The notes below the pieces were generated by a model. It was not told the DNA's origin, ran no database searches, and worked only from the letters and a program-made list of their open reading frames with translations. A stretch of 64,000 nt of DNA from Nocardioidaceae bacterium (GTDB taxonomy: Bacteria > Actinomycetota > Actinomycetes > Propionibacteriales > Nocardioidaceae), in assembly GCA_029266455.1 (NCBI GenBank), contig JAQSWV010000014.1, positions 1-64,000 on the forward strand. Direction: 5' to 3'. The position numbers and the translations under genes were made by a program. Positions 1,059-38,138 of the stretch are shown here, one piece after another (the first letter of the stretch is position 1; the number at the start of each line of letters is the position of its first letter).

Positions 1059-2711
1059 ATGCTGGGTGCGGTTGCGCTAGACCGGGGTCGAGCGGCTTTT
1101 GCCCGCATGGCCTGGCGGGAGGCGTTCGAGCAGTTGTCGGCGGCGGACGATGGAGCATCCCTGGAGCCCGCTGATCTCGAACGGCTCGCGACGGCGGCGT
1201 ATCTCGTCGCCGAGGAGGCCGACGCAGCCGCGGTGTGGACGCGCGCGTTTCACGAGTTCCTCGATCGAGATCAGCCCGAGCGGGCAGCCCGGTGCGGATT
1301 CTGGCTGACTCTGACGCTGCTGCTGCGAGGCGATGCTGCGCAGAGCAGCGGGTGGCTGGCCCGAACCCAGCGGCTTCTCGATGAGCGGCGGCTGGAGTGT
1401 GCGGAGCGGGGGCTCACCCTGACGATGGCTGCCCTCATGGCCATGGGCAGCGGGGACGCCGGTGCCGCCCTGGCGACGAACGACGAGGCCGCCAAGATCG
1501 GCGAGCGGTTCGGCGATCCGGATCTGGTCGCCCTTGCCCGGCTGCAGCGGGGTCAAGCGCTGATCCAGAGCGGCCGGCCCGCCGAGGGCGTGCGGCTGCT
1601 CGACGAGGCCATGATCGGCGTCGTGGCGGGTGAGGTCTCACCCGTCACGGCCGGCATCGTCTACTGCGCCGTGATCCTGACCTGTGCACGCGTCTTCGAC
1701 CTGCGCCGGGCGCATGAATGGACCGCAGCCTTGGACGAATGGTCCACGTCCCAGCCCGAGCTGGTCCCCTTCCGCGGGCAGTGCCTGGTGCACCGCTCGG
1801 AGATCTTGCAGCTGCACGGCTCCTGGGCAGAAGCACTGGTCGAGGCCCGTCGCGCCTGCGAGTGGCTGTCGGACACCACCGAGGGTGCGGCCGGGATGGC
1901 GTTCTACCAGTGGGGCGAGCTCCACCGGCTCCAGGGTGCGTACGACCGGGCGGAGGAGGCGTACCGGGAGGCGAGCCGAAGGGGCTACGAGCCGCAGCCT
2001 GGCCTGTCGCAGCTCAGGTTGGCCCAAGGTCGCGTCGATACCGCAGTGGCGGCCATCCGCCGCGCCGCGGCCGAGGCCGCGAGCACGCAGGGTCCCGGGG
2101 CGGGCACCCCGCTGGCCAGGCTGCTCGGTCCGTATGTGGAGGTGATGCTGACAGCGGGCCAGGTAGCCGCGGCGCGCACCGCTGCCGAGGAACTGTCGAC
2201 GATCGCGTCTGTGTTGGATGCACCGTGTCTGCACGCCATGTCCGCGCAGGCGATGGGGGCGGTTCTGCTCGCGGAGGGGAGGATCCGGGAGTCGCTCGAT
2301 GCCCTGCGGGCGGCGCGCAGGGTCTGGCAGGAGCTCGCGGCGCCCTATGAAGGGGCGCGGGTGAGGGTCCTGATCGGCCATGCGCTCCAGCAGCTCGGCG
2401 ACGACGAAGGTGCTGGACTCGAACTGGATGCCGCACACACAGTCTTCAGTCATCTGGGCGCCACCCCCGATCTCGAGGAGGTGGAAGGATTGTCGCGAAC
2501 CCGACGCGGGGAGTCTCCCGGCGGGCTCACGAACCGGGAGGTGGAAGTAGTCGCGCTCATCGCAGCGGGGCGATCGAACCGACAGATCGCCTCCGCGCTC
2601 GGCATCAGCGAGCGGACGGTCGCCCGGCACGTGAGCAATATCTTCACCAGGCTCGATGTCTCCTCGCGGGCCGCCGCCACGGCGTACGCCCTCAAGCACG
2701 GCCTTATCTGA
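1059..2711 (+). CDS. TPR-containing LuxR-family transcriptional regulator
   Basis: The 550-residue protein is a long, alanine-rich alpha-helical array of TPR-like repeats (about residues 10-470) followed by a C-terminal LuxR/GerE helix-turn-helix (about 485-548: [35 protein letters not shown]). There is no N-terminal receiver or Walker A ATPase, so it is neither a NarL response regulator nor a full MalT/LAL protein. The TPR part presumably senses a ligand or protein partner. I chose ATG 1059 over GTG 1050 because GGGGGTGAGG lies just upstream of it. It is 170 bp upstream of, and codirectional with, the FAD monooxygenase, which it may regulate (inference). Confidence 0.85.
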
Positions 2712-2881
2712 CGTGCCTCCTGGCGTGAAATGACCAGGCGGCCACCCCGCGAGTTTGGTCATTCCAGCCGACGCGGTCCCCACCGGCTCCTGCCTACGGT
2801 GACTCATCTTGCCTCGCGGAAGCACAACAGGACACGGGCGATCGGCGAGGACACGCTGACTGATCCAGAAAGGAGCTGGAC

Positions 2882-4096
2882 ATGTCCAAGTCCGACTATG
2901 ACGCGATCGTGGTGGGCGCGCGGTGCGCCGGATCGCCCACGGCGATGCTGCTGGCGCGCAAGGGCTACCGCGTCCTCCTCGTCGACCGAGCAACCTTCCC
3001 GAGCGACACGGTCTCGACACACCTCATCCATCACCCTGGCGTGGCGTCCCTGAACAGATGGGGGCTCCTGGATCGCGTCGTCGCGACCGGATGCCCGCCC
3101 ATCCATACCTACGCGTTCGACTTCGGCCCGTTCACGATCTCCGGGGTGCCCGGCATCGACGAAGCTCCCGTCGCATACGCGCCTCGCCGAACCGTGCTGG
3201 ACAAGCTCCTCCTGGACGCTGCCGCCGAGGCCGGCGCCGAGGTACGCGAAGGCTTCAGTGTCGAGGAAATCGTCTTTGACGACGGCCGGGTCACCGGCAT
3301 CCGTGGTCATGGCAAAGCAGGCGCGACCATCATCGAGCACGCGCGCGTAGTCGTCGGAGCGGACGGGCGACACTCGCTGGTAGCCGAGGCCGTGGCCGCC
3401 GAGCAGTACAACGAGAAGCCACAACTCCAGGGCAGCTACTACAGCTACTGGAGCGGCCTTCCCATGGACGGCCGGTTCGAGACCTACATCCGCCCCGGAC
3501 GGGGATTCGCGGCCTGGCCCACGAACGACAACCTGACCCTGGTCATCGTCGGAAGGCCGTTCGCGGAGTTCTCCGCATATCGGGAGAACATCGAGGAGAC
3601 CTACATGGCGACGTTCGGGCTGGTCCCAGGCTTTGCCGAAAGGATCAGCGCCGCAGCCCGCGAGACGCGCTTCGTGGGCACCGCGGTGCCGAACTACCTC
3701 CGCAAGCCCTACGGACCCGGTTGGGCGCTTGTCGGGGACGCCGGCTACAACAAGGACTTCATCACCGCGTTCGGCATGGACGACGCGTTCCGCGACGCCG
3801 AACGATGCGCCCGCGCACTCGACGAGGGGTTTACCGGCACACGCCCCTTCCACGAGGCCCTGGCGGACTACCACTCTGCGCGCGACCACCACGTCCTGCC
3901 CTTCTACCAGCTCACCGCCCAGATCGCGGCGCTCGAGCCACCGCCGCCCGACCTCGCCCAACTCCTCAGCGCCGCCTCACGCAACCAGGAAGCCATGGAC
4001 GACTTCGTCAGGGTCACCGCCGGCGTCACCTCGCCGGCCGAGTTCTTCTCCGAGGACAACGTCCGCCGCGTTCTCGCGGTCGCGACTGCGAACTAA
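2882..4096 (+). CDS. FAD-dependent aromatic monooxygenase-like oxidoreductase
   Basis: The 404-residue protein has the fold signatures of the p-hydroxybenzoate hydroxylase/squalene epoxidase group. There is an N-terminal FAD-binding Rossmann motif (AIVVGARCAGSPTAMLLA, residues 8-25), the DG motif (VVGADGRHSLVAEAV, around 160) and the third FAD motif (WALVGDAGYNKDFITAFGM, around 280). Such enzymes use FAD, NAD(P)H and O2 to hydroxylate or epoxidise an organic substrate in the cytosol; the substrate cannot be read from sequence. AAAGGAG sits 6-12 bases before the ATG. The gene stands alone behind the LuxR regulator, with its own upstream region at 2712-2881. Confidence 0.85.
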   Translation: MSKSDYDAIVVGARCAGSPTAMLLARKGYRVLLVDRATFPSDTVSTHLIHHPGVASLNRWGLLDRVVATGCPPIHTYAFDFGPFTISGVPGIDEAPVAYAPRRTVLDKLLLDAAAEAGAEVREGFSVEEIVFDDGRVTGIRGHGKAGATIIEHARVVVGADGRHSLVAEAVAAEQYNEKPQLQGSYYSYWSGLPMDGRFETYIRPGRGFAAWPTNDNLTLVIVGRPFAEFSAYRENIEETYMATFGLVPGFAERISAAARETRFVGTAVPNYLRKPYGPGWALVGDAGYNKDFITAFGMDDAFRDAERCARALDEGFTGTRPFHEALADYHSARDHHVLPFYQLTAQIAALEPPPPDLAQLLSAASRNQEAMDDFVRVTAGVTSPAEFFSEDNVRRVLAVATAN

Positions 4097-4352
4097 GAGC
4101 CCGCAGATCCGAGCCTGCTGCTCACCGACGGCGGACTCGCCCACCGGTCGGAAGAGCCACGACGGCGGGTGCCGTCCCGGCGGACTTGACCGCCACGCCG
4201 TGTCACGGTTCGTGACCTACATGGACGTGTCACTCCGCCGCCTATGACTGTCAAGCTCTTGCACTGCCCAGCTCCCCTCCCTTGCTAGGGCGCACAGGGG
4301 CAACGTTCACAGCCATGGCGCTCTTGCCGAGAACCGTTCATGCCTAGCGATC

Positions 4353-12230: not shown

Positions 12231-12307
12231 CGCACGACTCGGCGGGTCTGGTGCGGAGAGGGTCCAGGGAACGGATGTCGGGGCGGGGCTACGTTGGCGG
12301 GCCACAA

Positions 12308-12410
12308 GCCGCGGATCACGCAACCCAAAGCCGCGGATCACGCAACCACGAGCCGCGGATCGCGCAACCACGAGCCGCGGATCGCGCAACCACGAGCCGC
12401 GGATCGCGGG
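12308..12410. repeat. Tandem 22-bp intergenic repeat (4 full copies plus a partial)
   Basis: Copies start at 12308, 12330, 12352, 12374 and 12396. Each begins GCCGCGGATC(A/G)CGCAAC and ends in CACGA or a variant. Units 3 and 4 are identical. The array fills the gap between the convergent Nudix and metallopeptidase genes. On the minus strand the core reads GATCCGCGGCTTGTG or GATCCGCGGCTCGTG, resembling the GATCCGCGAGTTGTG core of the arrays at 35032 and 36264. There are no unique spacers, so it is not a CRISPR. Confidence 0.9.
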
Positions 12411-33442: not shown

Positions 33443-34219
33443 TCAACCGCTGCGGGTGGGGGCGCCTGCTCCGATCAGCTGTTGGGCCAGCTCGCGGTAG
33501 GCCTGGGCCCCCCGGTGGCGCCGCGCCGTCGACAGGATCGAACGGCCCACGGCCGGCGCCTCGGCGAATCGGATCGTCTTCGGCACCGGCGGTTCGAGCA
33601 CCCGGAGGTCGTAGGTGCTGGAGATGGTGTCGAGCACCGCGCGGGAGTGCGACGTACGTCCGTCGTACAGCGTGGGCAGGACGCCGAGGACCCCGAGAGC
33701 CGGGTTGGCGAAGCGGCGGACGTCGTGGACGGTGTCAAGCAGCTGCCCGACGCCGCGATGTGAGAGCGTCTCGCACTGCAGCGGTACCAGGACCTGGTCG
33801 GCAGCGGCCAGTGCGGCCACCGTGAGCACCCCCAGGGACGGCGGGCAGTCGATGAGCACCCAGTCGTAGTCGCCGGACGCCTCCTCCAGCGCGACGCGGA
33901 GCACGTGCTCCCGGCCGGTGCGCGTCAGCAGCTGCATCTCCGCCGCGGCCAGGTCGATGGTGGCCGGCAACAGGTCGGGCCCCTCGTCGACGGTCACCAG
34001 CACCGCGTCCATCCCCACGTCGCCGAGCAGCACCTGGTGCACCGACTTGTCGAGGTCCTCGGGGTCGAGCCCGAGGGAGAACGTGAGGCACGACTGCGGG
34101 TCGAGATCGATCAGCAGGACCCGTTGCCCGAGCTCGACCAGCGCCGCTCCCAGCGAGGCCACTGTGGTGGTCTTGGCCACGCCCCCCTTCTGGTTTGCGA
34201 CGGCGAGCGTGGTGACCAT
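33443..34219 (-). CDS. ParA/Soj-family ATPase
   Basis: A 258-residue protein with a deviant Walker A (ANQKGGVAKTTTVASLG, residues 8-24), Walker A' (RVLLIDLDPQSCLT) and Walker B (DWVLIDCPPSLG). No ParB gene or parS-like site is adjacent, so it is more likely an orphan partitioning or positioning ATPase than the chromosome-segregation Soj. Its gene neighbourhood resembles an orphan soj-like gene of mycobacteria. It is divergent from the SDR gene over 41 bp. Confidence 0.9.
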   Translation of the reverse strand: MVTTLAVANQKGGVAKTTTVASLGAALVELGQRVLLIDLDPQSCLTFSLGLDPEDLDKSVHQVLLGDVGMDAVLVTVDEGPDLLPATIDLAAAEMQLLTRTGREHVLRVALEEASGDYDWVLIDCPPSLGVLTVAALAAADQVLVPLQCETLSHRGVGQLLDTVHDVRRFANPALGVLGVLPTLYDGRTSHSRAVLDTISSTYDLRVLEPPVPKTIRFAEAPAVGRSILSTARRHRGAQAYRELAQQLIGAGAPTRSG

Positions 34220-34260
34220 GCGGCCATACTGCCGGATCCTGTGGCTGAGATGCTGGGGGC

Positions 34261-35019
34261 GTGCCGCCGCGGACCCAGACATCACTCGTGACCGGTGCCA
34301 CAGCGGGGATCGGGCTGGCGTTCTCGCGGGCGCTGGCTGCGCGGGGCGACGACCTCGTCCTCGTCGCCCGTGACGAGGACCGCCTGGACCGCGTCGCCGA
34401 GGAGCTGCTGTCCGCGTACGGCGGTGAGGTGCGGGTCGTGCCGGCCGACCTCGCGACCGACGACGGGACCGAGCGGGTGGCCGAGATGCTGCGCGAGGAG
34501 GCGATCGACCTGCTGGTCAACAACGCCGGCCACGGGACCCGCACCTCGTTCCTGGCCACACCGGTGGCCGACGAGGACGTCTCGCTCGACCTGATGGTGC
34601 GCGCTCCGATGCGGCTGTGCCATGCCGCGCTGCCCGGCATGCTCGACCGCAGGCGCGGCGCGGTGCTCAACGTGGCCAGCGTTGCGGCGTTCGTGCCGCG
34701 CGGGACCTACGGGGCGCACAAGGCGTGGCTGGTCAGCTTCACCCGCTGGCTTTCCGTCAGGCACCGCCGGCGGGGCGTGCGGGCCATGGTGCTGTGCCCG
34801 GGCCTCGTGCGGACCGAGTTCCACCAACGGATGCAGGTCGACGTGAGCAGCGTGCCCCGCTGGATGTGGCTCGACGCCGACCGGGTGGTGCGAGACGCCC
34901 TGACCGACCTCAGCCGCGGGGTCATCGTCTCGGTGCCGTCCCGCCGCTACCAGGTGCTGACCCGGCTGGCTCGCCTCACCCCACCCTCCGCCGCCGAGCG
35001 GTTCAGCCGACGTGGCTGA
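34261..35019 (+). CDS. Short-chain dehydrogenase/reductase
   Basis: A 252-residue protein from GTG 34261. It has the cofactor motif TGATAGIG (residues 11-18), NNAGHGT, the catalytic serine region NVASVAAFV and the catalytic YGAHK (Tyr and Lys), followed by CPGLVRTEFH. This is a classical SDR that reduces a carbonyl or oxidises an alcohol with NAD(P)(H). The Arg after the first strand (VARDEDRLDR) hints at NADP. The substrate is unknown. It is followed directly by the repeat array at 35032. Confidence 0.9.
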   Translation: MPPRTQTSLVTGATAGIGLAFSRALAARGDDLVLVARDEDRLDRVAEELLSAYGGEVRVVPADLATDDGTERVAEMLREEAIDLLVNNAGHGTRTSFLATPVADEDVSLDLMVRAPMRLCHAALPGMLDRRRGAVLNVASVAAFVPRGTYGAHKAWLVSFTRWLSVRHRRRGVRAMVLCPGLVRTEFHQRMQVDVSSVPRWMWLDADRVVRDALTDLSRGVIVSVPSRRYQVLTRLARLTPPSAAERFSRRG

Positions 35020-35031
35020 GGCGCCCCCCAG

Positions 35032-35190
35032 GCGACGATCCGCGAGTTGTGCAGGACCTCCCGCCCCTCCCAAGCGACGATCCGCGAGTTGTGCAGGACC
35101 TCCCGCCCCTCCCAAGCGACGATCCGCGAGTTGTGCAGGACTTCCCGCCCCTCCCCAAGCGACGATCCGCGAGTCGTGCAGGAGCTCCCG
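35032..35190 (+). repeat. Array A: 4 copies of a 42-bp repeat upstream of the PHP gene
   Basis: Copies start at 35032, 35074, 35116 and 35159. The conserved core is CGATCCGCGAGTTGTGCAGG, followed by a C-rich stretch (CTCCCGCCCCTCCCAA). Two further diverged inverted copies of the core follow (GCACAAGTCGCGGACC near 35193 and ACAGGTCGCGGACC near 35241). Units are nearly identical end to end, so there are no variable spacers. The array lies between the SDR stop and the PHP start; 35020-35307 holds no gene. The same core recurs inverted at 36264. Confidence 0.93.
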
Positions 35191-35307
35191 ATCGCACAAG
35201 TCGCGGACCAGCGCGTACGGGCGGCGGGAGGACCACGTTTACAGGTCGCGGACCAACCCGGATGTGGGGCGCGGAGGCAACGCAGCGCCGTCGCTTACCC
35301 TCTGCGG

Positions 35308-36216
35308 GTGCGTGCCGACCTGCACACCCACTCGCAACGCTCCGACGGGACGGACAGTCCGGCCGGCGTGATGCAGGCTGCCGCCGCCGCGGGTCTGGAC
35401 GTCGTCGCGCTCACCGATCACGACAGCGCGGCCGGCTGGGCAGAGGCGGCCGATGCCGCCCGGGTGGCAGGTATCGGTTTCCTTCCCGGCATGGAGATCT
35501 CCTGTGTCCTCGAAGGCCGGGCGGTCCACCTGCTGGCCTACGGCGTCGATCCGGAGCACGCGGGACTGCATGACGAGTTGTCGGCGGTGTTGGCAGGACG
35601 CACATCAAGGCTCCCCGCCATCCTTAGCCAGCTGAGCAGCCTGGGCATCAGCGTCAGCGAAGAGGACATTCGCGCCGTGAGTGGCCACGCGACTGCGGTG
35701 GGCAGGCCCCACGTGGCCGACGCCCTTGTCGCGTCAGGGCATGTCGCTGACCGTACCGAGGCGTTCGACCGCTATCTGTCGCCCGGCCGGCCGGCGTACG
35801 TCAACCGCCGATCCGCGCCGCTCCGCACAATGCTCGGTCTGGTCGCCTCGGCCGGCGGGGTCAGCGTCGTGGCCCACCCGTGGGCGCGGGCAAGCCGACG
35901 CGTGCTCACCCCGGACACGGTGGCGTCGCTGGTCGCTGACGGACTGACCGGTCTCGAGGCCTGGCACCAGGACCACTCCGCCGAGGACGCAGCCCAGCTG
36001 GCGATGCTGGCAGGCGATCTCAACCTGGTCGCGACCGGCGCGAGCGACTACCACGGCACCGGCAAGGTGAATCACGAACTGGGCTGCCACACCACGCCAC
36101 CGGCGCAGTTTGAGCAACTGCTCGAGCGGATGGTGGTCGCCGGCGACGCGGCACGGCAGCGTGACCCGTCGGTGCGACCCACCCCGTGGTGCCGACCCGC
36201 GCCCGGACCGCGCTGA
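35308..36216 (+). CDS. PHP-domain metal-dependent phosphoesterase
   Basis: A 302-residue protein beginning RADLHTHSQRSDGTDSP (GTG 35308) with the PHP metal-ligand motifs: motif I HTHSQRSDG, motif II ALTDHDS, a glutamate in FLPGMEIS, HPWAR and the C-terminal GASDYHGTGK. It matches the YciV/TrpH-like family, which removes 3'-phosphates or degrades short oligoribonucleotides 5' to 3'; the substrate here is not proven. The frame is open upstream through the repeat array, but homology begins here. It is flanked on both sides by arrays of the same short repeat in opposite orientation. Confidence 0.9.
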   Translation: MRADLHTHSQRSDGTDSPAGVMQAAAAAGLDVVALTDHDSAAGWAEAADAARVAGIGFLPGMEISCVLEGRAVHLLAYGVDPEHAGLHDELSAVLAGRTSRLPAILSQLSSLGISVSEEDIRAVSGHATAVGRPHVADALVASGHVADRTEAFDRYLSPGRPAYVNRRSAPLRTMLGLVASAGGVSVVAHPWARASRRVLTPDTVASLVADGLTGLEAWHQDHSAEDAAQLAMLAGDLNLVATGASDYHGTGKVNHELGCHTTPPAQFEQLLERMVVAGDAARQRDPSVRPTPWCRPAPGPR

Positions 36217-36263
36217 AGGTGAGATTCGGCTGACGGCCAACTGCGACTTTCACCGCTAGTACC

Positions 36264-36442
36264 CCTGCACAACTCGCGGATCGCCACCCTCGGGGGGAGA
36301 GCGAGGCGCAGCACCCCTGCACAACTCGCGGATCGTCACGTTTCGGGAGGGGGAGGGCGCAGCACCCTGCACAACCCGCGGATCGTCACGTTTCGGGAGG
36401 GGGAGGGCGCAGCACCCCCTGCGCAACTCGCGGATCGTCACC
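36264..36442 (-). repeat. Array B: 4 inverted copies of the same core, period about 50 bp
   Basis: Cores CCTGCACAACTCGCGGATCG or close variants start at 36264, 36316, 36366 and 36418, the reverse complement of the array A core. The intervening sequence (GTTTCGGGAGGGGGAGGGCG) is also repeated. The array fills the gap between the PHP gene and the convergent DUF6758 gene; the last copy contains the DUF6758 stop codon. Confidence 0.93.
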
Positions 36443-37079
36443 CAGGCGCGGGGTGCAGCCGTGGGGAGAGGCCGGTCAGCGGGAGCAGCTCGAGCTCGCC
36501 GACCAGCCGCCGCAGGTCGACGACGGTCGGGGCCTCCATCAGCACCGCGGCAGCGGCCAGCGGTGGCCAGGCGACCAGCCAGAACCAGCATCCACCTGCC
36601 TCGCCGACGCACACCTGCCGGTCGTCGCCGGAGTCGACGAACCACAACGGCGTGGGGTGTCCACCGACGGTGATCCGGGCATCCGCCGGCCGGGCGACCA
36701 CGACCGGTCCCGGGTCAGGCGAGACGAGCCCGGCGTAGTGGGCGCCGAGGCCGACGCCCGGCTCCTCCGCGACCAGCACGAGGTCACCCGGACCACCGAG
36801 CGGGTCGGTGCCGGACAGTGCCAGCACGGTGCCGACGGTCGTCTGCTCCACCGCTCTGCCCACCCCCGCTACTGACCACACTTCCGGCAGGGGCCACGGC
36901 AGCCAGGTCGGTGCGCCGGTAGCGGCGACATGCCTCAGCAGGGCGTGCACCGACGGGTCGCTGAACCCGTACAGACCGGGTACGTGCCCGTGCTGCCCGC
37001 ATACCCAGCCTTCCCCGGTCTCAAGGTCCGGCGCCAGCGCTGCCCCGCAGCGCGGGCACCACACGGACTCAGGCGGCAT
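36438..37079 (-). CDS. DUF6758 family protein
   Basis: A 213-residue protein from ATG 37079. A short N-terminal zinc-ribbon (VWCPRCGAALAPDLETGEGWVCGQHG) with two CxxC-like elements precedes a conserved domain rich in Trp and Pro (TWLPWPLPEVWSVAGVG, WFVDSGDDRQVCVGEAGGCWFWLVAWPPLAAA, VDLRRLVGELELLPLTG). This fits the actinobacterial DUF6758 family of unknown function, which commonly neighbours a PHP-domain gene. It is convergent with the PHP gene and divergent from the Nudix gene over 36 bp. Confidence 0.8.
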   Translation of the reverse strand: MPPESVWCPRCGAALAPDLETGEGWVCGQHGHVPGLYGFSDPSVHALLRHVAATGAPTWLPWPLPEVWSVAGVGRAVEQTTVGTVLALSGTDPLGGPGDLVLVAEEPGVGLGAHYAGLVSPDPGPVVVARPADARITVGGHPTPLWFVDSGDDRQVCVGEAGGCWFWLVAWPPLAAAAVLMEAPTVVDLRRLVGELELLPLTGLSPRLHPAPG

Positions 37080-37115
37080 GCACAGACGGTGACCGACCGC
37101 CTGTGACCCGTCAAG

Positions 37116-37556
37116 ATGGGACGCATGCGCACCCGTCCGCCCGCGAGCGCGGCCGCCCGACCGCGGGTGCGCTGTGTGGGCGCGGTGGTGCGTGACGAGT
37201 CCGGCCGGCTGCTGCTGGTCCTGCGTGGACGGGAGCCGGCGGTCGGCACCTGGTCGCTGCCCGGCGGGCGGGTGGAGGTGGGTGAGACCGACGCGGAGGC
37301 GCTGCGCCGGGAGCTGGCTGAGGAGACCGGTCTGGACGTGGTGCCAGGCGCCGAGGTGGGCACGGTCCTGCGCGACGGTGGCGGCGGGGTGACGTACGAG
37401 ATCCACGACTACGCGTGCGACGTGGCCGCCGGGTCCCTCGTGGCTGGTGACGACGCCGCGGAGGCGCGGTGGGTCGCCGCGGCGGACGTCCGCCTGCTGC
37501 CGTGCGCCCCCGGCCTCGTCGAGACCCTCACGAGCTGGGGCGTCCTCGGCGAGTGA
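37116..37556 (+). CDS. Nudix hydrolase (MutT-like)
   Basis: A 146-residue protein. The Nudix box GGRVEVGETDAEALRRELAEETGL is complete. The sequence before it (RCVGAVVRDESGRLLLVLRGREPAVGTWSLPG) is typical of small MutT/ADP-ribose-type enzymes. The substrate is undetermined. ATG 37116 or 37125 could be the start. It converges with the histidine phosphatase gene with only 6 bp between stop codons. Confidence 0.85.
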   Translation: MGRMRTRPPASAAARPRVRCVGAVVRDESGRLLLVLRGREPAVGTWSLPGGRVEVGETDAEALRRELAEETGLDVVPGAEVGTVLRDGGGGVTYEIHDYACDVAAGSLVAGDDAAEARWVAAADVRLLPCAPGLVETLTSWGVLGE

Positions 37557-37562
37557 GCGTCG

Positions 37563-38138
37563 TCAGCCGTTCCAGCGCACCAGCACGGGCGAGCCACGGT
37601 CGTCACCCAGCACGCAGACGGTGCCGGTGTCGAGCAGCAGGTGCCGGCCGAAGTCATACCGTTCGTCCACCCAGCGGGCGGCCAGCACCCGCAGCAGGTG
37701 TCCGTGCGCGACGAGCAGCGAGCGTCCGCCGCGCTCGCGGCACCGGGCGATGACGCGGTCGCAGCGGGCGGCGACCTCGGCGCCGGACTCCCCGCCGGGA
37801 GAAGGGTGGGTCCAGACGGTCCAGTCGGGCACCGTCTCGCGGATCTGCGGCGTGCTCACCCCCTCGTACTCGCCGTAGCGCCACTCGTGCAGGTCGGCGT
37901 CGACCTCGTCGACCTTCAGCCCGGCCAGCTCGGCGGTGCGCTGCGCGCGCTCCAGCGGGCTGCTGACGACCCGGTCCAAGGACGCACCGGACAGCCGATC
38001 GCGGAGCAGGCGGGCCTGCTCCTCGCCCTTGGGCGTGAGCGGCAGGTCGGTGACGCCGGTGTGCCTGCCGTCGCGGCTCCACTCGGTCTCACCATGCCGC
38101 ACCAGCCACACCTCGGCCGCGGTCTCCTCGACGGGCAT
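37563..38138 (-). CDS. Histidine phosphatase (phosphoglycerate mutase-like)
   Basis: A 191-residue protein with the RHG motif (VWLVRHGETEWSRDGRHTG), SSPLERAQRTAEL, the catalytic Glu region HEWRYGEYEG and the second catalytic His in LLVAHGHLLRVLAARW. Broad acid-phosphatase-type members of this branch act on sugar or small phosphomonoesters. The sequence does not point to glycolytic mutase. A single cytosolic domain. Confidence 0.9.
   Translation of the reverse strand: MPVEETAAEVWLVRHGETEWSRDGRHTGVTDLPLTPKGEEQARLLRDRLSGASLDRVVSSPLERAQRTAELAGLKVDEVDADLHEWRYGEYEGVSTPQIRETVPDWTVWTHPSPGGESGAEVAARCDRVIARCRERGGRSLLVAHGHLLRVLAARWVDERYDFGRHLLLDTGTVCVLGDDRGSPVLVRWNG

Follow-up and report, generated by a model that had tools for sequence, protein, structure and literature searches.

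In the genome of a Nocardioidaceae bacterium (assembly GCA_029266455.1), a single PHP-domain gene lies between two arrays of one short repeat, and these arrays point in opposite directions. What such an arrangement is, and whether it concerns this gene in particular, was studied in a window of 64,000 nucleotides (contig JAQSWV010000014.1, positions 1 to 64,000; 72% G+C). The earlier note on this DNA had described four plus four oppositely oriented copies of one 20-base core around the gene, with periods of 42 bp in array A and 50–52 bp in array B, and both points were borne out. When up to three mismatches were allowed, the core CGATCCGCGAGTTGTGCAGG had eight matches in the window, four forward and four reverse. 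The mean number of matches in shuffled windows was 0.02, and none of 100 shuffles reached eight. Neighbouring copies were spaced by 42, 42 and 43 bp in array A and by 52, 50 and 52 bp in array B. The locus contains the following features:

34261–35019, plus strand: SDR (short-chain dehydrogenase) gene (PF00106, 2.9e-37)
35027–35190, plus strand: array A (TRF and core search), four forward copies with a unit of about 42 bp, at 35036–35055, 35078–35097, 35120–35139 and 35163–35182
35193–35209, minus strand: degenerate reverse copy of the core with 2 mismatches, 12 bp from array A and facing it
35308–36216, plus strand: PHP-domain gene (PF02811, 6.4e-11)
36261–36441, minus strand: array B (TRF and core search), four reverse copies with a unit of 50–52 bp, at 36264–36283, 36316–36335, 36366–36385 and 36418–36437
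36438–37406, minus strand: DUF6758 gene on the outer flank of array B, given as the longest ORF (PF20544, 1.8e-55, over residues 116–317)

The first copy of array A is located 17 bp from the SDR stop, and the outermost copy of array B is located 1 bp from the DUF6758 stop. The true start of DUF6758 is probably internal to the longest ORF because the Pfam match begins at residue 116. For PHP, the best NCBIfam models, both below cut-off, were 3',5'-nucleoside bisphosphate phosphatase and RNase RNM. The degenerate copy at 35193–35209 is followed near 35241 by a weaker degenerate reverse copy, and the array A gap is itself a facing cluster that can be written as '++++ -(-)'.

The bases between the cores had been described as constant within each array, which was found to be true in part. 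Identity to the first unit of array A (51 nt) was high for copies 2 and 3 (94 and 92%) and dropped to 76% for copy 4; in array B (50-nt units), the two middle copies were 98% identical, and the outer two were only 66% identical. The arrays had also been called a large inverted repeat around a single gene. They are inverted and enclose one gene, but they do not form a long perfect repeat. Between the gaps that flank PHP, exact inverted matching extends over 22 nt at most, within imperfect inverted matches of 58 nt (71% identity) and 41 nt (80% identity), and the spacers of the two arrays differ from each other. Comparison of positions 34000–38000 with the Rfam covariance models gave no match at E <= 1.

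The reading favoured here, with a probability of about 0.7, is that the core belongs to a lineage-specific interspersed repeat whose inverted arrays served as portable homology and mediated local inversions, including that of PHP. The evidence for the repeat family, for the inversions and for the link between them is considered in turn.

The genome search for the core that had been proposed together with the first description revealed a dispersed element. In the source genome (3,428,888 bases, 128 contigs), the degenerate core SATCCGCGASTTNTGCA had 105 exact matches (55 forward and 50 reverse), and the reversed-pattern control had none. The pattern TCCGCGRSTYGTGC was matched 107 times in this genome and at most four times in each of the other 293 family genomes (294 were searched). 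When GATCCGCGAGTTGTGCA was used with one mismatch, 2 of 39 genomes gave matches, namely the source genome (109) and one genome with a single match. The one congener sampled, G001, had no match to either TCCGCGRSTYGTGC or GATCCGCGAGTTGTGCA. As sampled, the repeat expansion is confined to the source genome.

Copies were then counted with up to two mismatches in 42 stretches chosen around listed matches and in the window, a set that is not a complete census. There were 142 core copies in 70 runs in these stretches, where they formed about 50 core-bearing regions, and 137 of the 142 copies lay outside gene calls, which were made by a hexamer script outside the window. Two copies at L052:3038–3108 are located inside a long gene call (2203–4257) and are perhaps translated. 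The consensus of 138 full copies consists of a C-rich tract at positions -13 to -7 (53–77% C), then C-G-A-C, then GATCCGCGA[C/G]TTGTGCA-GG; as a pattern, it can be written as a C-rich tract and then CGAC-GATCCGCGA[G/C]TTGTGCAGG. Core bases 4–8 (CCGCG) and base 15 are conserved at 100% after rounding, and C and G share base 10 equally. The spacing between neighbouring copies has a mode of 41–42 bp (21 of 71). Helical phasing of the copies was considered and rejected: the value of R = 0.39 at 10 bp (62 distinct spacings) disappeared when the mode of 40–44 bp was removed.

A role of this first class of repeat as an RNA element was also rejected. There was no Rfam match, and the sense strand of 97 distinct units was less structured than its shuffles (-3.73 vs -4.58 kcal/mol). 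The antisense strand was slightly more stable than shuffles (-4.69 vs -4.04 kcal/mol), and its commonest fold was a 4-bp stem (43 of 97), that is, a weak hairpin at best.

Related variants occur in the same genome. One array of a second class lies in the window:

12302–12408, minus strand: second repeat class, five copies of a 22-bp unit between convergent genes, motif GATCCGCGGCTCGTGG...

This class, ATCCGCGGSTYGTGG, with its 22-bp period, recurs on other contigs. In a set of 34 units, which includes two copies of the first class and at least one other stray, the sense strand folded at -10.83 kcal/mol compared with -8.69 for shuffles, and the antisense strand folded at -6.90 compared with -6.48 kcal/mol. 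A third variant, ATCCGCGCGTTGTGG, was observed on source-genome contig C88 (L171:1–836) as +++ before and - after a gene at 126–818, and this bracketed gene could have been flipped.

Whether PHP had changed its orientation was judged from the loci of relatives, in which the window's neighbour genes were placed by tblastn. Of the 24 relatives' loci examined, 16 contained DUF6758 as well as PHP, and the two genes ran in the same direction in every one of these, with PHP just downstream of DUF6758. The two genes converge in the window, opposite to all of these loci. The order in G013, ParA(-), SDR(+), PHP(-), DUF6758(-), is that of the window with only PHP turned. In G016, the order was SDR(+), MarC(-), PHP(-), DUF6758(-), HisPhos(-), and in the congener, it was PHP(-), DUF6758(-), NUDIX(+), HisPhos(-). 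Judged by this comparison of gene order, PHP is the only gene that has been flipped, and it has kept its place between the inverted arrays. The locus has probably had a further change. Among the 24 relatives' loci, nine have a MarC gene (Pfam) after PHP, as does the congener (L083:348–965), and this gene is absent from the window between SDR and PHP and from 55 other stretches examined; therefore, the window locus appears to have also lost or moved a gene.

The relatives' loci do not carry the repeat as arrays. With up to three mismatches, the 25 PHP loci contained no array and just two isolated 3-mismatch matches, both in one locus, and all 40 relatives' loci taken together (25 PHP, 15 exonuclease) contained six such isolated matches in five loci. 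The earlier note had staked its proposal of a structural or regulatory element linked to PHP on the presence of arrays near this gene in relatives. That proposal is not supported, and regulation specific to PHP was rejected, as the arrays are missing there and the same element occupies the many other regions counted above. Its other suggestion, a non-autonomous mobile origin of the repeat, is plausible.

A second gene that appears to have been flipped between facing arrays is that of a 5'-3' exonuclease on contig C35. The order on this contig is HelY-type helicase(+), array ++++, ABH(-), exonuclease(+), array +--, M24 peptidase(+), where HelY stands for the Pfam DSHCT helicase and ABH for alpha/beta hydrolase. 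Both the helicase and the exonuclease were found in 13 of 15 relatives' loci, where their directions were opposite in all 13; in the source genome, the directions are the same. The longest exact inverted identity across the exonuclease segment is 29 nt. Since ABH had no match in the 15 relatives' exonuclease loci, it is an addition, and this locus has undergone more than a simple flip.

The leaders of the neighbouring genes help to place the breakpoints. At M24, the leader CCGCTAGCCTGGCGGCGTGAC is kept directly after the C-rich tract of the array, and G001 has CCGTTAGCCTGGCCGGGTGAC at this place (21 bases, 3 differences). The motif TACCCTC before the PHP start is common to the window and G016, and in the local alignment of the window with G001 few bases upstream of PHP are kept before the start. 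Because leaders are kept at M24 and PHP, the breakpoints must fall within the array-bearing gaps, at a resolution coarser than a base.

Pairwise gene orientations were compared with those in the source genome in three neighbourhoods; in these counts, pairs from the same locus depend on one another. Pairs that included PHP were the same in 0 cases and opposite in 45, and pairs that included the exonuclease were the same in 0 cases and opposite in 29. All other pairs were the same in 70 cases and opposite in one, the exception being a weak IspD match in L137 (30% identity). These counts bear on the possibility that the inversions occurred first by other means and that the repeats accumulated later in the same gaps. 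Many intergenic gaps hold arrays anyway, and the crossover points were located only to gaps, both of which suit such a coincidence. However, both informative bracketed resident genes were flipped, whereas the unbracketed pairs agreed in 70 of 71 cases, and a coincidence of this kind is considered unlikely. Flipped loci were found at two places only.

Other genes also lie between facing arrays:

L036:9128–10048 (source-genome contig C55): AbiEi/MTES_1575-type gene, between facing arrays in the IspD/IspF gap

In G001, IspD and IspF converge in the same way and the AbiEi-like gene is absent; by this comparison, the AbiEi-like gene is an insertion between conserved convergent neighbours, and no flip is involved. 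An inversion of IspF was rejected, as IspD and IspF are convergent in the relatives too. A homologue of the AbiEi-like gene detected by BLAST (L161:2803–3795, no Pfam match) has a 22-bp array about 8 bp from its end. Another homologue, in G008 (L119), lies between helicase and exonuclease, where there are no arrays. For a bracketed polyketide cyclase (C91), none of its own neighbours was beside it in 13 relatives' loci, so this case is uninformative. A further bracketed gene is a 154-aa ORF on C115 (L053).

The arrays follow a clear rule of layout. Among 17 regions of mixed orientation, 15 had the order '+ then -', one had '- then +' and one was mixed; for 15 of 16 two-run regions, p = 0.0005. 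Many core regions have no gene between their facing runs. With respect to genes, the 53 copy-bearing regions comprised 16 convergent (one of which, L035:1024, carries a second-class copy), 17 co-directional and 6 divergent regions, and the remaining 14 either bordered a contig edge or fell within a gene call. The outer edge of a run was nearer to the gene when it faced a stop (median 36 bp, n = 37 runs) than when it faced a start (median 112 bp, n = 26).

This placement raises the possibility that the repeat is a 3'-end element whose tandem runs would work at the RNA level or as roadblocks after stops, in termination or mRNA stability, and that the inverted layout only reflects convergent genes. 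The shorter distance to stops agrees with this, as does the excess of convergent over divergent array regions (16 vs 6, compared with 40 and 39 among sample gaps of at least 40 bp; two-sided p about 0.05), and the sense strand of the second class folds better than its shuffles. On the other hand, the core of the first class is less structured than shuffles in its sense strand, and the runs in co-directional regions were sense in 12 cases and antisense in 11; therefore, the direction of a run agrees with the facing rule rather than with the gene. Stop-proximal placement is expected if the element prefers 3' ends, but also if insertions near promoters were removed, and such loss would yield the same distances. 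An element of this kind would also leave the inversions unexplained, and this explanation is regarded as doubtful.

If the arrays mediated the inversions, as is preferred here, the events may be pictured as follows. The core family would have spread to about 50 regions, mostly intergenic, by transposition or copying, and the core would have been amplified locally into tandem runs. Facing runs on both sides of a gene would then form an inverted repeat, and recombination between them would invert the segment while the arrays stayed facing. At the PHP locus, an ancestral SDR(+) / PHP(-) / DUF6758(-) would have become SDR(+) / PHP(+) / DUF6758(-). The arrays would have served as the substrate for homologous recombination or template switching. 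At 22–29 nt, perfect identity is short and low for RecA, which makes a frequent switch less likely than rare recombination or template switching in the course of evolution. Altogether, the repeat family probably mediated the inversion of PHP and of one other gene.

A more elaborate version, in which the directional core is the site of a recombinase or transposase that pairs inward-facing arrays, captures genes (AbiEi-like, ABH) and flips residents (PHP, exonuclease), is considered quite improbable. If it were true, the genome would have a dispersed system of gene inversion and cargo capture that is not driven by RAYT.

It is very unlikely that the bracketed genes form an invertible switch, with a dedicated recombinase that recognizes the core and flips them reversibly (phase variation). 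Two bracketed genes were indeed flipped as intact genes, and the core has a direction, is highly conserved and faces inward in almost all cases. Against this, no recombinase was found among nine genes scanned with Pfam near PHP (nine of the genes between 31.1 and 39.3 kb), and many of the core regions lack a gene to be switched. It is highly improbable that the PHP segment was joined the wrong way across the repeats in the assembly. The exact inverted identity (just 22 nt at PHP, 29 nt at the exonuclease) is shorter than the usual assembly words, and the spacers of the two PHP arrays are not alike. On the other side, a listed repeat copy is found within 50 bp of at least 14 of the 256 contig ends, so the arrays do break this assembly.

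The inversion-mediating repeat family proposed here was compared with known systems, of which the arrays of neisserial intergenic mosaic elements with dRS3 repeats (NIME/dRS3) are the closest functional parallel. In passages of the sources on these arrays, dRS3 is given as ATTCCC(N8)GGGAAT, with 6-bp terminal inverted repeats and almost 700 copies. There, pilC1 is an example of a single gene with NIME arrays on its flanks, and the arrays are held responsible for rearrangements, inversions among them (PMC3898611, PMC3454330). As in NIME/dRS3 so described, the present repeats are about 20 bp long and form intergenic arrays with spacer repeats, and arrays are found at rearrangement breakpoints, here as two in-place inversions bounded by array-holding gaps. 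In contrast to dRS3, the present consensus does not have the termini ATTCCC...GGGAAT, and the number of exact copies is 105 rather than the almost 700 given in those passages. Unlike in NIME, single genes were flipped in place here.

REP elements are palindromic (20–40 bp, hairpin-forming), and those of the GTAG type are linked to Y1 transposases. According to passages on REP, BIME and REPIN elements (GTAG and CGTC superfamilies), they are extragenic, lie mainly downstream of genes and exceed 100 copies; oppositely oriented copies are often close to each other, and some of the elements are species-specific (PMC3733652, PMC2817692, PMC3116915). The present repeat is similar in its copy number, in its location outside gene calls and in the inward-facing order of its mixed regions (15 of 17). 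In contrast to REP elements, its core shows no clear palindrome, its sense strand folds worse than shuffles, and it forms tandem runs in one orientation. The consensus from -13 to +41 contains no GTAG; its outer edge is C-G-A-C-G, and CGTC is found only on the opposite strand. A RAYT-type Y1 transposase (PF01797) had no match in the source genome (a draft, 97.15% complete) or in the congener, and 2 of 25 genomes searched have one. The family works like NIME and REP repeats and, by the features tested, is a member of neither.

The MIRU/VNTR arrays of mycobacteria are intergenic tandem units of some 40–60 bp or more, and the present arrays resemble them in being intergenic tandem units; the definition of MIRU/VNTR is not known to include an inverted layout or gene inversions. 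A search of the open-access literature for 13-mers of the core as letter strings gave no related paper, and nothing on such repeats in this bacterial group was found there among the matches listed.

Rearrangements ascribed to short interspersed repeats are usually large. In this genome, two single genes appear to have turned in place, each enclosed by facing arrays with a core of about 22 bp, and the sampled relatives are without the repeat. The loci may therefore serve as a natural before-and-after comparison of how little homology inverts a gene and of the effect of inversion on expression. They also offer a case for how REP-like repeats that are not clearly palindromic spread without RAYT.

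A motif scan of other sequences gave 24 stretches in genome contigs and 2 in viral contigs, most of which look like unrelated tandem repeats; two of them (L064 and L067) lie partly on a tRNA-Lys gene. More than one stretch was present only in Actinobaculum suis (8) and in one Nocardioidaceae MAG (2), and because the query pattern itself imposes similarity, this does not demonstrate shared descent with the present family. In the MAG, MGR_bin125 (L057 and L074), 22-bp arrays of ATCCGCGGATTGTGG at two loci resemble the second class of the window genome. Arrays of AATTCCGCGGTTTGTG are dispersed in Actinobaculum suis, where they enclose single genes, with + copies mostly to the left and - copies mostly to the right:

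L060:2760–4173: pyrroline-5-carboxylate reductase gene
L072:2358–3534: SRAP gene
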